Positions 1 to 7,353 of a stretch of 7,433 nt of DNA are shown here, one piece after another. The notes below the pieces were generated by a model. It made no database searches. It had not been told where the DNA came from and saw only the letters and a program-made list of their open reading frames with translations. Made by a program: the position numbers and the translations under genes. Numbering within the stretch: the first letter of the stretch is position 1; each line of letters opens with the position of its first letter. The stretch comes from Ignavibacteriales bacterium (GTDB taxonomy: Bacteria; Bacteroidota; Ignavibacteria; Ignavibacteriales; Ignavibacteriaceae), in NCBI GenBank assembly GCA_027349615.1, contig DAIEML010000115.1, positions 1 to 7,433 of the forward strand. Reading direction: 5' to 3'.

Positions 1-1364
1 CGGTGTTTGGAAATTTCTTTCTTCCAATAATGCTTGGAGCGAAAGATGTAGCGTTTCCAAGAATTAATTTATTAACGTGGTATCTTTATATAATCGGTGG
101 AACTTTAATTCTTCTTTCCCTGGTTCTTCCAGGCGGTGCTGCTGATACTGGCTGGACATTTTATGTACCTTACAGTGTTCGAACCGGAACTAATATGATT
201 TTCACGTTAACGGCAGTATTTATTTTAGGATTTTCTTCAATCCTTACAGGCTTAAACTTTTTAACTACAATTCACCGTATGAGAGCGCCGGGTATGGGTT
301 GGTTTAAGATGCCACTTTTTGCTTGGTCGCTTTATGCAACTTCTTGGATTCAAGTAATTGTTACTCCGATTGTTGGAATAACATTGCTAATGGTTATAAT
401 TGAAAGAGTATTTCATGTTGGAATATTCGATCCTACACTTGGCGGCGATCCATTATTATTTCAGCATATGTTTTGGATGTATTCACACCCAGCAGTTTAT
501 ATTATAATTGTACCTGCGATGGGAGTTATTTCCGAAGTGATTCCAGTTTTTTCTCAGCGGACAATTTTTGGTTACAAATTTATTGCTTATTCTAGTTTAG
601 GCATTGCGGTATTCGGCTCGTTGGTTTGGGCGCACCACATGTTTGCAACTGGAATGAGCGACACTGCCGAATTTGTTTTTTCTCTTCTAACTTTTCTTGT
701 CGCTATTCCAAGCGCGATAAAAGTATTCAACTGGACAGCAACTCTTTATAAAGGCTCAATTAAGCTTGAAGCACCAATGCTTTATGCGCTAGCTTTTATT
801 TTCCTTTTTTCAATCGGCGGATTAACAGGAATTATTCAAGGTGCACTTAATGTTGATCTTTATTTAACCGATACTTATTTCATTGTGGGGCATATTCATT
901 ATGTTGTTTTCGGTGGTACAGGATTCGGATTATTCGCTGCACTTCATTACTGGCTGCCGAAGATGTTTGGAAGAATGTATAATAAAAAAGTTGCGAAGGT
1001 TGCATTCTGGATTGTGTTCATCGGATTTAATGTGCTTTATTTCCCATTCTTTATTCTCGGCTGGATGGGAATGCCAAGAAGATCTTATCATTATCTTCCA
1101 CAGTTCCAGCTTTATCATGTAATTGCAACTGTTGGTTCATGGATTTTAGTTCTAGGTTTATTAATAATGATGGTTAATCTTTTAGTTTCATTAATTAAAG
1201 GTGAGAAAGTTACTGAAAAAAATATCTGGGGCGGCGAAACTTTAGAATGGAAAGTTTCCACTCCGCCAACTGTTGAAAACTTCGAAGAAATTCCGGATGT
1301 ATTTGATGGACCTTATGAATACAAACAAAATGAATTAGCGACTATGGAAGAGGAGGTAAAGTGA
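1..1364 (+). CDS. ctaD: Cytochrome c oxidase subunit I (A2-type heme-copper oxidase), 5'-truncated
   Basis: This is the catalytic subunit of a proton-pumping terminal oxidase in the cytoplasmic membrane, reducing O2 with electrons from CuA. Only the C-terminal 453 codons or so are present. The reading frame runs off the left edge, and the GTG at 3 is an internal Val codon, not a start. About 100 or more N-terminal residues are missing, including the first heme a histidine. Numbering from the GTG codon, the D-channel entrance N4, D15 and N22 is intact (GAKDVAFPR). YSHPAVY at 160-166 gives the CuB ligand H162 and the cross-linked Tyr166. H211-H212 are the other CuB ligands. K240 in IKVFNW is the K-channel lysine. 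H297 and H299 (GHIHY) ligate heme a3 and heme a, and GMPRR at 356-360 holds the propionate arginines. Ala164 replaces the Glu of HPEVY, and Tyr160-Ser161 is the A2-family substitute. The gene overlaps ctaE by 4 bases. Family assignment is very secure. Confidence 0.97.
   Translation, partial: VFGNFFLPIMLGAKDVAFPRINLLTWYLYIIGGTLILLSLVLPGGAADTGWTFYVPYSVRTGTNMIFTLTAVFILGFSSILTGLNFLTTIHRMRAPGMGWFKMPLFAWSLYATSWIQVIVTPIVGITLLMVIIERVFHVGIFDPTLGGDPLLFQHMFWMYSHPAVYIIIVPAMGVISEVIPVFSQRTIFGYKFIAYSSLGIAVFGSLVWAHHMFATGMSDTAEFVFSLLTFLVAIPSAIKVFNWTATLYKGSIKLEAPMLYALAFIFLFSIGGLTGIIQGALNVDLYLTDTYFIVGHIHYVVFGGTGFGLFAALHYWLPKMFGRMYNKKVAKVAFWIVFIGFNVLYFPFFILGWMGMPRRSYHYLPQFQLYHVIATVGSWILVLGLLIMMVNLLVSLIKGEKVTEKNIWGGETLEWKVSTPPTVENFEEIPDVFDGPYEYKQNELATMEEEVK
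1351..1357 (+). promoter_or_regulatory. Shine-Dalgarno that fixes the GTG start of ctaE
   Basis: AGGAGGT lies three bases before the GTG at 1361, inside the last codons of ctaD. It is the strongest ribosome-binding site in the window. It supports GTG as the true start of subunit III and suggests translational coupling through the GTGA stop/start overlap. Confidence 0.8.
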
Positions 1365-1981
1365 CCACTCAAGAACATGCAGTAGAACATGTACATCGAG
1401 ATGACATCCGCAGCAAAATGGGGATGTGGCTCTTTCTTTTTTCCGAACTTTTATTGTTCGGAGGTTTATTCTTTATGTACTCGGTTTATAGATTTATGCA
1501 CCAGCAGGATTTCAGCATTGCATCAAAAGAAATGAACACATTTCTTGGTACTTTGAATACTGTAATTCTTCTTACAAGCAGCTTAACTATGGCGCTTTCA
1601 ATTGCGGCTATTCAAAAAGGGAAGAAAGGTCTTTCCATATTTTTACAGATCGTTACAATTCTGTTTGGCTTAGCTTTTATGGTTAATAAAGTAATTGAAT
1701 GGAGTCACGAATTTGCCGAAGGAAACTTTCCCGGCTCTTCAATTCTTGCCAACAGACCTCCTGGACAAATTCTTTATTTCGGTTTGTATTATTCAATGGT
1801 TGGTCTTCACGGCTTGCACGTTCTCGTTGGAATGACAGTAATTGGTTTTATGACTGTCTTTACTATTAAAGGAAAAATTACTCAAGATAATTATGTTAAA
1901 CTTGAAGCTGCCGGTTTATATTGGCACCTTGTGGACATTATCTGGATTTTCCTTTTCCCATTATTTTATCTTATAACTTGA
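1361..1981 (+). CDS. ctaE: Cytochrome c oxidase subunit III
   Basis: This is the integral membrane subunit III of the heme-copper oxidase, which in this family stabilises subunit I and proton uptake. The 206-residue product is the short, five-helix form typical of bacterial caa3/bo-type enzymes. Family motifs are clear: KMGMWLFLFSELLLFGG (19-35) with the conserved helix-1 Glu29, GLHGLHVLVG (148-157), and the C-terminal EAAGLYWHLVDIIWIFLFP (182-200). Helices lie roughly at 22-42, 64-84, 92-112, 136-164 and 186-204. The N-terminus is His-rich and polar (EHAVEHVH). The start is GTG, overlapping the ctaD stop, and is supported by a strong Shine-Dalgarno sequence. No ATG fits better, because the next Met (M20) lies within the conserved first motif. 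The gene is part of the oxidase operon, 10 bases upstream of ctaF. Confidence 0.96.
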   Translation: MTTQEHAVEHVHRDDIRSKMGMWLFLFSELLLFGGLFFMYSVYRFMHQQDFSIASKEMNTFLGTLNTVILLTSSLTMALSIAAIQKGKKGLSIFLQIVTILFGLAFMVNKVIEWSHEFAEGNFPGSSILANRPPGQILYFGLYYSMVGLHGLHVLVGMTVIGFMTVFTIKGKITQDNYVKLEAAGLYWHLVDIIWIFLFPLFYLIT

Positions 1982-2952: not shown

Positions 2953-3867
2953 ATGAACACTTTAGCTATTACAGAAATACAAAATGTAAAACCAAAATTG
3001 AGCTTATCAGAAAAGCTTTCAATGGTTATTGAATTAACAAAACTGAGGATTACAACTTTTGTAACGTTAACAACAATGTTTGGTTTTGTTTGTTTTATAG
3101 GAAAAATTACTTTTGATATAATTGCGCCGACTTTAGGAATTTTATTGCTTTCTTCCGGATCTGCTGTTATCAATCATTTCCAAGAGAGAAAAACTGATGC
3201 CTTAATGAAAAGGACAAAGAATCGTCCTCTTCCTGCTGGCAAAGTTTCTCCTTTATCTGCTTTGTTATTTGCAATCTCATTAGTGCTTTCCGGTTCGGTT
3301 ATTCTACTTATTGGTTCAGGATTTTTAGCGTTTGGACTTGGCTTATTGAATCTTGTTTGGTATAATGGAATTTATACTCCTTTAAAAAAAGTAAATCCAT
3401 TAGCAATCGTTCCAGGCTCAATTGTGGGGGCTTTGCCGCCCATGGTCGGCTGGGTTGCCGCCGGTGGAAGTTTATTAGATCCACAAATATTGATTCTCGG
3501 ATTTTTCTTTTTCATTTGGCAGATACCTCATTTTTGGCTTTTGCTTATGATTTTTGGAAATGATTATGAACAAGCAGGCTTTCCAACTCTTACACAACTT
3601 TTTAGTGTTGAGCAGCTTTCGAGAATTACTTTTATTTGGATTATCGCAACTTTTGTAACAAGTATGTTAATACCGTTATTTGGGATATTAAAAAATAATT
3701 TTATTGAATTTGGTCTGCTTGCTGCAGGAATTTGGTTAACATGGAATTCGCTAAAATTGTTAAAATCTGAAAAAGAAAAAGTTTGGTTTCGTTTTGCCTT
3801 TAGAGAAATAAATATCTTTGCGATTTTAGTTGTTCTTCTTTTAACAATAGATAAATTGTTAATCTAA
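2953..3867 (+). CDS. ctaB: Protoheme IX farnesyltransferase (heme O synthase)
   Basis: This is a membrane prenyltransferase of the UbiA superfamily that transfers a farnesyl group from farnesyl diphosphate to heme b, making heme O, the precursor of heme A for subunit I. The first Asp-rich, Mg-diphosphate-binding motif is NHFQERKTD (74-82: N74, E78, D82), followed by the family block MKRTKNRPLPAGK (85-97). The second loop region includes YTPLKK (141-146) and GALPPMVGW (159-167), followed by WQIPHFW (189-195) and NDYEQAGFPTL (203-213). The product is 304 residues with about nine hydrophobic helices, the normal size. The roughly 30 residues before the first helix are a moderately long extension. 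No clear Shine-Dalgarno precedes the ATG (13-base A-rich gap after ctaC), so the exact start is less certain than the identity. Heme A synthase (ctaA) is not in this window. Confidence 0.95.
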   Translation: MNTLAITEIQNVKPKLSLSEKLSMVIELTKLRITTFVTLTTMFGFVCFIGKITFDIIAPTLGILLLSSGSAVINHFQERKTDALMKRTKNRPLPAGKVSPLSALLFAISLVLSGSVILLIGSGFLAFGLGLLNLVWYNGIYTPLKKVNPLAIVPGSIVGALPPMVGWVAAGGSLLDPQILILGFFFFIWQIPHFWLLLMIFGNDYEQAGFPTLTQLFSVEQLSRITFIWIIATFVTSMLIPLFGILKNNFIEFGLLAAGIWLTWNSLKLLKSEKEKVWFRFAFREINIFAILVVLLLTIDKLLI

Positions 3868-3915
3868 TTCCATCTAAAATATTTTATGAAATAAAAAGAA
3901 ATAGAGAGCTTTTAA

Positions 3916-5259
3916 ATGAATCTTTTAGACAAATTAGTTATACCTCTTTCGCCTGAACATATTACTTTGCTGCATTATATTTCGATGCTGATCTTCTTTT
4001 TGTTTGTTCCTTATATCAGCATTGTTTTAGGTGGAAATATCCTTTCGCTTTACTACAAATCAAAAGGAATAAAAGAGAATAATAAACTATATCTTCGTTT
4101 TTCACGGGATATTATTGAAACCGTTACAATTAATAAAAGTATTGGCATTATGCTTGGGATTATTACTCTTGTAACTTCAATTCTTATTTATGTTCAGCTA
4201 TTTCATAATGCAAATTTGGAGTCGGTTAACTTTTTAACTTGGGCATTTGTTTTTGTTACACTTGGTTTAATTTTGATTTATACTTATAGGTATTCATCTG
4301 CTTTCAGCGACTTATTTAATAATATTCATGATTATAAAACTGAAGATCAATCAGTACTTGCAGAACTTGAATCATATAGAGTAAATACTAGAAAACTAAG
4401 TTTTAAAGCTGGAAGATTTGGACTAGCATTTTTGTTTATTGGTATCTGGCTATTTGTAGCTGGAATTACAATTGCCTTCTTTACAAATGAGTGGAACGAT
4501 AAAAATATTTTGTCGATTTTGTTTTCATGGCCGGTTATCTCTAGATTTATTCCATTCGTTATCACGGCTTTGGCATTTACTGGAGCTACAATTTTATTTA
4601 GTTTTTTTTATTGGGATGGTGGCAAGAAAAATTTATCTGACGAGTACAAGAATTTTGTTAAGAATTTAGGAATTAATTTAACGGCAGTTTCATCTATCGT
4701 TCTTCCAATTTTTATTTTAATTGATATTACAAATTTACCAGACAATTCAATTTCAAGCAGTGTGTTTTTCTATTTGACATTAGGGCTTTTATTTTTATTC
4801 CTTGGTTATCATTATCTATATTCAATGTACAAAAATTCTAATACTAATTACAGCTTGCATATTTTTCTAGTAATTTTAATTACAATTTTTACGGTTATTA
4901 TTGCAGATCAGACTGCAATGAGCAATGCAAATCAAACTCAAACTTTTGTATTAGCACAAAATTTTGATAATGTAATGGCAAAGTTAACTGAAGGAAATAA
5001 ACCTAAAGTAATAAGTGGAGAAGACATTTATAAAAACATTTGCTCTGCTTGCCATAGCTTCGATCATAAAGTGGTAGGACCACCTTATAAACAGACGCTT
5101 CCGAAATATCGTGATGATGTAGATAAACTTGTAAAATTTATTTTGAATCCAACTCAAAATAATCCTGGTTATCCGCCAATGCCGAATCCAGGGCTAAAAC
5201 CGGATGAAGCAAAAGCGGTTGCAACTTATATTCTTAAAGAAGTAAAAAAATACGAATAA
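3916..5259 (+). CDS. Eight-helix membrane protein with C-terminal cytochrome c domain
   Basis: I do not recognise this 447-residue protein as a named family. Hydrophobic helices lie at about 16-45, 75-96, 105-125, 167-190, 208-231, 252-272, 282-303 and 313-330. The positively charged loops (46-74, 124-166, 232-250) would be cytoplasmic, placing both N-terminus and C-terminal domain in the periplasm. The C-terminal domain (about 363-447) is a class I cytochrome c: CSACH at 376-380 binds heme c, GPP at 388-390 is typical, and M422 in YPPMP is the likely axial ligand. Helix 1 (H20, FLFVPYISIVLGG) weakly recalls the first helix of cytochrome bd subunit I, but the acidic residues expected in helix 3 are absent. 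The gene is 48 bases after ctaB and last in the oxidase operon. Since subunit II lacks its own heme c, this protein may deliver electrons to CuA. That role is inference; the cytochrome c domain is secure. Confidence 0.88.
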   Translation: MNLLDKLVIPLSPEHITLLHYISMLIFFLFVPYISIVLGGNILSLYYKSKGIKENNKLYLRFSRDIIETVTINKSIGIMLGIITLVTSILIYVQLFHNANLESVNFLTWAFVFVTLGLILIYTYRYSSAFSDLFNNIHDYKTEDQSVLAELESYRVNTRKLSFKAGRFGLAFLFIGIWLFVAGITIAFFTNEWNDKNILSILFSWPVISRFIPFVITALAFTGATILFSFFYWDGGKKNLSDEYKNFVKNLGINLTAVSSIVLPIFILIDITNLPDNSISSSVFFYLTLGLLFLFLGYHYLYSMYKNSNTNYSLHIFLVILITIFTVIIADQTAMSNANQTQTFVLAQNFDNVMAKLTEGNKPKVISGEDIYKNICSACHSFDHKVVGPPYKQTLPKYRDDVDKLVKFILNPTQNNPGYPPMPNPGLKPDEAKAVATYILKEVKKYE

Positions 5260-5566
5260 AATTTAGAAATAATTTCTAACACCATTTCATCTCTTAGAAA
5301 TATAAATGGCAAATAAAATATTCTTATTTGCCATTTATTTTTTTAATCCTAAAAATAAATACCATTATATTAGCCAAAATTTAAAATTTCAGAAAAGTAA
5401 AATTGAAATTACTATGGATTAATAGGCGAATATATGCCTTGAAGAAAATTGATTTGGAAGCTGCAGAGAAATAAAAATTCTGGATAAATAATAAATCTTA
5501 ATAGAAAATCTTTTATAATATATAAAAAAAATTTTATAAAAATTATAGAAAGTCAATCACTGGATT
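5260..5566. other. Convergent intergenic region, non-coding
   Basis: This region between the 3' ends of the oxidase operon and the receiver-STAS gene holds the operon terminator (5302-5344) and, before it, a short TTAGAAA/TTTCTAA inverted repeat (5263-5269 / 5273-5279). The rest is very AT-rich. Next to the - strand gene, TATAAAA (5521-5527) can pair with TTTTATA on either side (5511-5517 or 5532-5538), next to an A8 run that reads as U8 on the - strand. This is the only hint of a terminator for that gene, and it is weak. No convincing gene is seen. Confidence 0.6.
5302..5344 (+). terminator. Rho-independent terminator of the oxidase operon
   Basis: A perfect 15-bp stem (5302-5316 with 5324-5338) encloses a 7-base loop and runs directly into a seven-T tract (5338-5344). 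It starts 43 bases after the stop codon of the cytochrome c membrane protein, which fits the end of a long oxidase transcript. The stem includes the GGC/GCC core; the rest is A-T pairs. Confidence 0.9.
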
Positions 5567-6583
5567 TTAAGATACTCTTTCCTTTTTAGCCGTTATTTCA
5601 TTAAAACAGTTTACTGCGAAATTTAGATTATCATAAATTTTAAAATTTCGTTTTACCCAATCTAAAATAAACGGATTAATAGTTGAACGATTGTTATCCA
5701 TTACTAATCTCATTTCAGTTTTGTTGTACATCCTAAATCTTTTAGCGGCTTCAACAAACACTCCCGTAAACGCAGAATCAATAAATTCAATTTGGCTTAG
5801 ATCTATTAAAATTTTTGCAGGATTTTCTGCGATAATGGGAAACAAAAAATTGCGAAATGAAATAGCTTCATTTTGATTGGCTACAGTTAAATTTATAATT
5901 ATTAGAGTGAGGTCATTAAATTTAAATTTCTCATAATCATTTAGGTTATTTCGTTCTGAACTCAGATAATTCAAAAATGGATTATTTTTTTCTTCGTCTT
6001 TCTTTGGATCATTATCGTCATTGTTGACTTTCGGGTCTACAATTTCAATATTGGGAGTAAAGTTTTCGATTTCACAATTATCAATTAATCTTTTATCTGT
6101 AGACAACATGTTGTCCCATTCTTGCTTAGAAAAAAGATCAGAACCAGGCAATGTTTCAGAAATGATTCTTAATAATTTATCTGCTTCTAAAGGTTTTTGA
6201 AGAAAATCTAATGCGCCTAAATCCATAGCTTCGCGAACTAGAAGACTAATTGAAAAATCACTCATAAAAATAAATTTAACGTCAAAATGTTTATTAAATT
6301 TATTTAATTCTTTCAATACAGTTAAACCATTGATGTCAGGAAGATTTATTTCAGAAATTACTATGTCTGGTTTTTGAACAATTATGCTATAAATTCCATT
6401 ATTCCCAGAATTAGAAGTTATTACTTCAAAATTATTTTTTTCAAGATAATATTTTAATTGATTGGCATAATGAGAATCATTATCTATAATTAATATCTTT
6501 CTTCTTGTATCGGTAATTTTAGTTGAAGTAAAAGGCAGGTTACTTAAACTTGTTTTGTTTAAAGTTTCAACTTGTGTAATCAT
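5567..6583 (-). CDS. Receiver-STAS fusion protein with atypical phospho-acceptor site
   Basis: This 338-residue soluble regulator has two domains. A CheY-like receiver spans about 29-145: KILIIDND (29-36), PDIVISEINLPDING (72-86), FMSD (106-109) and FLQKP (127-131). Aligned by these motifs, K130 and S108 keep the conserved Lys and Ser/Thr. The phospho-acceptor Asp is Glu78 (codon GAA at 6350-6352), and one of the paired acidic Mg ligands is Asn35. A charged Asn/Asp/Lys-rich linker (about 150-215) leads to a STAS-like domain (about 218-330) with ILIDLSQIEFIDS (258-270), the fold of anti-sigma-factor antagonists. S270 lies where SpoIIAA-type proteins are phosphorylated, but the following residues are AFTG rather than SGLG. 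There is no DNA-binding domain, so output is probably protein-protein. GGTGAAAG directly before the ATG supports this start. No kinase or anti-sigma partner gene is visible, and the target is unknown. Confidence 0.88.
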   Translation of the reverse strand: MITQVETLNKTSLSNLPFTSTKITDTRRKILIIDNDSHYANQLKYYLEKNNFEVITSNSGNNGIYSIIVQKPDIVISEINLPDINGLTVLKELNKFNKHFDVKFIFMSDFSISLLVREAMDLGALDFLQKPLEADKLLRIISETLPGSDLFSKQEWDNMLSTDKRLIDNCEIENFTPNIEIVDPKVNNDDNDPKKDEEKNNPFLNYLSSERNNLNDYEKFKFNDLTLIIINLTVANQNEAISFRNFLFPIIAENPAKILIDLSQIEFIDSAFTGVFVEAAKRFRMYNKTEMRLVMDNNRSTINPFILDWVKRNFKIYDNLNFAVNCFNEITAKKERVS

Positions 6584-7032: not shown

Positions 7033-7353
7033 ATGAAACTTAATAGCGGAAATACTTCGAACAATTTATTATTCATATTTGCTGCAATTTTCTTCTTGTT
7101 ATTTTTAAGCGGTTGTGCAGATGCAATTCAATATCAGTATGATAAAAACATTATTGTAGTTGGATTTTGGTACGGTTTATGGCATGGATTAATCGCACCA
7201 ATTAGTTTTATAATTTCTTTGTTCAATGATAAAGTTGCAATTTATGCAGTTTATAATAATGGTGGCTGGTACAACTTTGGATTTTTACTTGGCGCTAGCA
7301 TTTCAATTGGCAGCGGAAGTAGAGCATCAAAAAACAAATCAAAAGCTGTATAA
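7033..7353 (+). CDS. Small predicted lipoprotein of unknown function
   Basis: This 106-residue protein carries a type II signal peptide: a polar N-terminus, a hydrophobic stretch (12-25), and the lipobox LSGC with Cys28 as the likely lipidated residue. The mature part is only about 79 residues. It contains a hydrophobic, aromatic, Gly-rich core: GFWYGLWHGLIAPISFIISL (44-63), then VAIYAVYNNGGWYNFGFLLG (68-87), and a Gly/Ser then basic tail ending KNKSKAV. The ordered Gly, Trp, His and Asn-Gly pattern looks like a conserved uncharacterised small membrane-associated protein and not random coding, but I cannot give a function. AAAGG six bases before the ATG supports the start. The gene stands alone, with its own putative promoter and a strong terminator right after the stop codon. 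Confidence 0.85.
   Translation: MKLNSGNTSNNLLFIFAAIFFLLFLSGCADAIQYQYDKNIIVVGFWYGLWHGLIAPISFIISLFNDKVAIYAVYNNGGWYNFGFLLGASISIGSGSRASKNKSKAV

Follow-up and report, generated by a model that had tools for sequence, protein, structure and literature searches.

A cytochrome c-bearing CydA' derivative beside a heme-copper oxidase in Ignavibacteria, and its probable link to alternative complex III

Introduction

We analysed a stretch of 7,433 nucleotides from an Ignavibacteriales bacterium (contig DAIEML010000115.1, hereafter the window), in which the last gene of a heme-copper oxidase (HCO) operon encodes a 447-aa protein, here called the target. The results showed that its membrane part is a member of the cytochrome bd CydA superfamily, and that the protein descends from a CydA' subunit, two invariant His having been lost from its membrane half and a C-terminal heme c retained. 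We consider it probable, at roughly two chances in three, that this His-depleted CydA' derivative sits between alternative complex III (ACIII) and the HCO, docking both, with its heme c relaying electrons from ACIII to CuA.

Results

The target has the CydA fold and a C-terminal cytochrome c

The features of the target are as follows.

3916-5259, + strand: target open reading frame (ORF), 447 aa
3916-4950, + strand: residues 1-345, eight-helix membrane part with the CydA fold
3958-3960, + strand: H15, found in almost every row of the target family; CydA' has Asp here
4003-4005, + strand: F30, site of the first invariant CydA' His, corresponding to H21 of Geobacillus CydA (5doq) in a weak profile alignment
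4195-4197, + strand: Q94, conserved in the target family, found in 1/123 CydA' rows
4552-4554, + strand: P213, site of the second invariant CydA' His, probably the heme b558 ligand position
5005-5259, + strand: residues 364-447, class I cytochrome c, with CXXCH at 5041-5055 and Met422 at 5179-5181

The ORF is not a chance frame, because 326 homologues were found among 7999 scored candidates and the same gene order is kept down to 28% target identity (L062). An AlphaFold model, built on a 34-row alignment of the window and 33 of 120 listed homologues (326 matched), has a mean pLDDT of 83.4 and a pTM of 0.72; it predicts a cytochrome c fold after eight membrane helices, the fold being less confident (pLDDT blocks of 56-81). 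Lys and Arg number 0-1 in each of the four outer stretches and 1-5 in each of the four inner loops, counts that fit a periplasmic location of the N-terminus and the cytochrome c. The heme c motif CSACH occupies residues 376-380, and M422 is the likely distal ligand. Each of C376, C379, H380 and M422 occurs in 175/181 rows of the target family, the remaining 6 being gapped there; all 175 ungapped rows thus carry the CXXCH and distal Met of a class I cytochrome c. In Pfam and NCBIfam scans only this part was recognised, by PF00034 above its cut-off, and the membrane part had no match. Some homologues of about 540 aa (P0044, P0048, P0053, P0058 and others) have a tandem second C-terminal cytochrome c domain.

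The family of the membrane part was found through CydA', the often cytochrome c-bearing partner of CydA-like proteins, whose rows here may or may not be of OR-N type. Profile comparison of the target with CydA' gave E 2.1e-26, and the homology spans the full length including the cytochrome c (394 columns, E 1.7e-41). One CydA' row, P0247, exceeds the PF01654 cut-off (27.2 vs 26.2 bits), and an aligned C-terminal CXXCH is present in 60 of the 123 CydA' rows. Direct comparison of the target with three CydA-like rows gave no homology signal (prob 0.5), and hhalign against one ActC and one ActF, which are NrfD-like, saw no sequence link (prob 0.1-0.2). In the tree, a 100/100 branch separates the target and outer rows (those from outside the window's class, Ignavibacteria, described below) from CydA', the target rows cluster together (97/98) and the outer HCO-linked rows are weakly grouped (78/56), although the tool flags several long branches. 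The first-pass annotation had described an eight-helix membrane part with a C-terminal cytochrome c at the end of an oxidase operon, in agreement with the model, the heme motif and the gene order; its statement that the membrane part matches no family is corrected here. CydA' is itself variable: L108, P0189, P0261 and others are without cytochrome c, two having a different C-terminal extension without CXXCH, and most CydA' rows have no Pfam membrane model.

The invariant histidines of CydA' are replaced in the target family

Two His are invariant in CydA', at positions 34 and 192 in L108 numbering (each 123/123 rows), and we take them to be heme ligands. The His of CydA in the first and fifth transmembrane helices are presumably H19 and the heme b558 ligand H186 of E. 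coli. In the target family the first position is F in 172/181 rows and H in 2 (L078, L077), and at the second no residue prevails (H in 9/181). M308, R312 and R316 of CydA' (L108 numbering, each 123/123) are also substituted in nearly all target rows, and the window has F, P, V, D and M at the five positions, so that neither helix carries its His in the target (F30, P213). Other residues have become conserved anew, namely H15 (169/181), Q94 (178/181) and D331 (162/181).

The target has His at 15, 20, 97, 138, 299, 315, 380 and 384. The annotation had pointed to H20, H97, H299 and H315 near the two membrane faces and thought an additional heme b site conceivable. These residues are indeed present, but they are conserved only in part: H20 is His in 145/181 rows and Arg or Lys in 18, H97 is His in 130/181 and another residue in 51, H299 is His in 135/181 and H315 in 71/181. 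Since the invariant His of the relatives are replaced and the named His are partly conserved, an extra heme b is unlikely, and the eight-helix bundle would be without a b heme.

Gene order ties the target to an HCO and to ACIII

The window operon runs COX1-COX3-COX4-COX2-CtaB-target, with the following features beside the target.

3-1364, + strand: COX1, oxidase subunit I (PF00115, 440 bits), 5' end beyond the window
1361-1981, + strand: COX3 (PF00510)
1992-2291, + strand: COX4_pro (PF03626)
2298-2939, + strand: COX2, CuA subunit without cytochrome c (PF00116, TIGR02866; no CXXCH)
2953-3867, + strand: CtaB, heme o synthase (PF01040; TIGR01473 201 bits, slightly below the cut-off of 210.3)
5302-5338, + strand: terminator-like hairpin 3' of the target, 15 pairs followed by a T run

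COX1 is probably of A2 type, as judged from the Melioribacter enzyme, and the subunit II was confirmed to lack a fused cytochrome c. A hairpin scan of 3800-5700 gave 2 sites vs 0.7 in shuffles. Further on, the window holds a gene on the strand opposite to the operon (5567-6583, - strand) that joins a response regulator receiver domain to a STAS domain, and a 106-aa ORF (7033-7353, + strand) that is membrane or lipoprotein-like and has no Pfam match.

The order COX1-COX3-COX4-COX2-CtaB-target recurs in most sufficiently long loci; CtaB lies 3' of the target in L105, L107 and L110 and was not seen in L103, and the full oxidase gene set is not present in L055, L058, L065 and L030. The target neighbours in the window and its relatives are HCO genes, and a CydA-like catalytic gene is not adjacent. 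COX1 and over 3.5 kb of upstream sequence are available in 34 loci. In 33 of them ACIII genes lie upstream, separated from the oxidase genes by SCO; in the remaining one, L062 from Krumholzibacteriia, ActA is directly 3' of the target. One genome (G193), taken to be that of Melioribacter roseus, agrees in gene order with Mros0045-0033, and MROS_0033 is taken to be the 446-aa homologue of the eight-helix target. This would correct the label of soluble class I c551/c552 cytochrome that the gene bears in published accounts; in one of these (PMC5492636) MROS_0033 was reliably detected in the membrane proteome only in aerobic cells, as were CoxI, CoxII, ActC and ActDE.

Target-like proteins (E <1e-50) were also found outside the class, in 6/80 genomes of the phylum to which the Krumholzibacteriia record belongs and in 5/82 of the phylum of record JdFR-76 (titled Deferribacteres). 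In all nine fetched outer loci the next recognised gene 3' of the target is actA, then actB, and where the contig permits the order is SCO-COX1-COX3-COX4-COX2-CtaB-target-ActA-ActB-ActC-ActD-ActF. In L228, a 7-kb contig, the target lies directly 5' of actA with an SCO-like piece before it, and CtaB and COX genes were not seen. The same slot before actA is taken in four further loci of the JdFR-76 phylum by CydA' with a CydA-like gene before it. Both His are kept in these ACIII-linked CydA' rows (4/4); of the HCO-linked rows from outside the class, 9/11 have the first and 1/11 the second (the nine fetched loci, L078, and L077 or L070, which are two ends of the JdFR-76 gene), and the class rows as a rule keep neither. 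Beyond the known genes, eight of these loci showed only one CXXCH ORF, of 731 aa, past SCO in L229, in a listing whose overlap filter also concealed some known genes and may have missed a small cytochrome.

Subunit II cytochrome c and natural deletions of the oxidase core

The target occurs in 67, and a COX2 match in 128, of 149 genomes drawn from the class. COX2 matches were obtained in 66 of the target genomes, G313 having none; their open frames do not exceed 272 aa, except in G036 (322 aa) and G129 (323 aa). COX2 loci were fetched from 20 target genomes and from 40 of the 62 non-target genomes with a match, and subunit II carries a cytochrome c in 0/20 of the former vs 17/40 of the latter. 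The 16 of the 17 cytochrome c-bearing loci in which COX1 is visible have the closest COX1 (57-64% identical), and the 23 without cytochrome c adjoin a more distant one (34-46%). A cytochrome c of its own is present on subunit II in all nine outer loci where COX2 is visible, as well as in G036 and G129, whose domain resembles the outer-locus one most closely. The domain is therefore probably ancestral, having been lost later in most of the class.

Two loci, L065 (UBA1304; 4370-11335) and L030 (BMS3Abin03; 3712-11269), have intact reading frames for ActA-F, COX3, COX4 and the target, while COX1, an intact COX2 and CtaB are missing there. L030 has remnants, namely 87 residues of SCO and one ORF in which the COX2 start is fused to the CtaB end. 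In both deletion genomes, searches with the window COX1 (E 1e-20) and with PF00116 gave no match. G387 encodes a 708-aa PF00115 protein comparable to the 707-aa one of Melioribacter, and G388 has weak PF00115 matches only, one with stops. If the deletions are not assembly errors, the target is useful beside ACIII without this oxidase.

Discussion

We infer that the CydA-fold bundle docks two membrane complexes, ACIII and the HCO, and holds its heme c between them, in which case electrons would pass from menaquinol to the c hemes of ACIII, the heme c of the target and CuA of subunit II. ACIII would once have been paired with a bd-like CydA/CydA' oxidase; an HCO would then have replaced the catalytic CydA, CydA' remaining beside actA, and the cytochrome c of subunit II would finally have been lost in most Ignavibacteria. 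Of the two roles proposed in the first-pass annotation, the evidence favours that of an entry point which connects a further complex, here ACIII, with the oxidase. Rather tentatively, the target may be a general ACIII adaptor, a pseudo-bd subunit left from an oxidase-family swap: the docking slot by ActA, and not the oxidase, would be the conserved unit, through which ACIII swaps oxidases (bd-like, heme-copper, perhaps others) with this plug retained, and an assembly of ACIII, COX3, COX4 and this plug would work without the COX1/COX2 core in some Ignavibacteria.

Several points weigh against a target that bridges ACIII and the HCO. Its association with both is deduced from gene order and the published membrane proteome, and both deletion cases stem from draft or metagenome-type assemblies. 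Ignavibacteria ACIII has monoheme c proteins of its own, which may make the extra heme redundant. PF01654 was matched by only 1/23 CydA' rows, Foldseek with the target model gave no PDB match at E 0.001 or better, and the target profile found no CydA among the best 60 of 77 matches to PDB sequences. A solo target copy of 424 aa (L055 and L058, 10001-11272) has no oxidase or ACIII genes nearby; it lies near two c-type proteins that look NrfA/NrfH-like by eye, with a small membrane gene next. There is also a small doubt about the membrane heme, as new ligands are conceivable with H15 nearly invariant.

The annotation's other proposal, a tethered electron donor replacing the cytochrome c missing from subunit II, agrees with most Ignavibacteria, where all 20 fetched target loci lack that domain and its bearers among non-target genomes have the closest COX1. 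It is nevertheless unlikely, and incomplete as a sole role: two cytochromes c stand together in the nine outer loci, G036 and G129, and the target outlives COX1 and COX2 in two genomes. Those two genomes would suit an ACIII exit subunit serving several acceptors (cbb3, other reductases) and not this oxidase specifically, as would the 708-aa protein of G387, cbb3-like as judged by size, and a speculation in the published account of F. johnsoniae that ActE has more than one acceptor (PMC8552683). Such a role is quite improbable, since an acceptor-neutral subunit leaves the retention of COX3 and COX4 unexplained and nearly all other target copies with sufficient flanking DNA adjoin HCO genes. A b heme still held by new ligands (H15, H20, H97) and redox active, for example with quinol, would draw on a heme-binding fold and on the conservation of H15, H20 and Q94, but the loss of both invariant His, with Arg or Lys at H20 in some rows and frequent replacement of H97, makes it very improbable. 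Least credible is an assembly factor for CuA or heme insertion, suggested by the adjoining CtaB and the SCO in the cluster, as the target has an intact heme c site and stays by ACIII at loci without COX1, COX2 and CtaB.

The target as bridge between ACIII and the HCO would mean that bd-like and heme-copper oxygen reductases, which are unrelated families, have a subunit at ACIII in common. It offers a stepwise series for tracing an oxidase swap, in which both His, one or none remain and the cytochrome c of subunit II is at first retained and later lost. The ACIII-CydAA' link itself is already known: in Nitrospirales, the bd-like CydAA' type OR-N5 is reported to be encoded directly downstream of ACIII (PMC12342949). 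Our literature search did not find a CydA'-derived protein linked to an HCO. The target resembles the CydA' of those OR-N reductases, as described there, in CydA fold, in the C-terminal CXXCH seen in about half of our CydA' rows and in ACIII linkage; unlike it, the target lacks the two invariant His and a CydA partner, and is paired with an HCO. NrfD-like ActC and ActF showed no sequence link to the target in the comparison with one of each. ActE is likewise a monoheme c protein beside ACIII, but is a proposed lipoprotein in Rhodothermus marinus, by the account in PMC5928083, and has no eight-helix part. In the ACIII-oxidase supercomplexes covered by the same account, a cytochrome c domain lies between ACIII and CuA on the caa3 subunit IIc (R. 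marinus) or on an extra ActA domain (Flavobacterium johnsoniae), the latter appearing to replace the domain of subunit IIc from another subunit. The target suggests a third location for the cytochrome c wiring ACIII to its oxidase: the carrier is subunit II itself in R. marinus and ActA in F. johnsoniae, whereas here it is a separate CydA-fold protein of the bd family.
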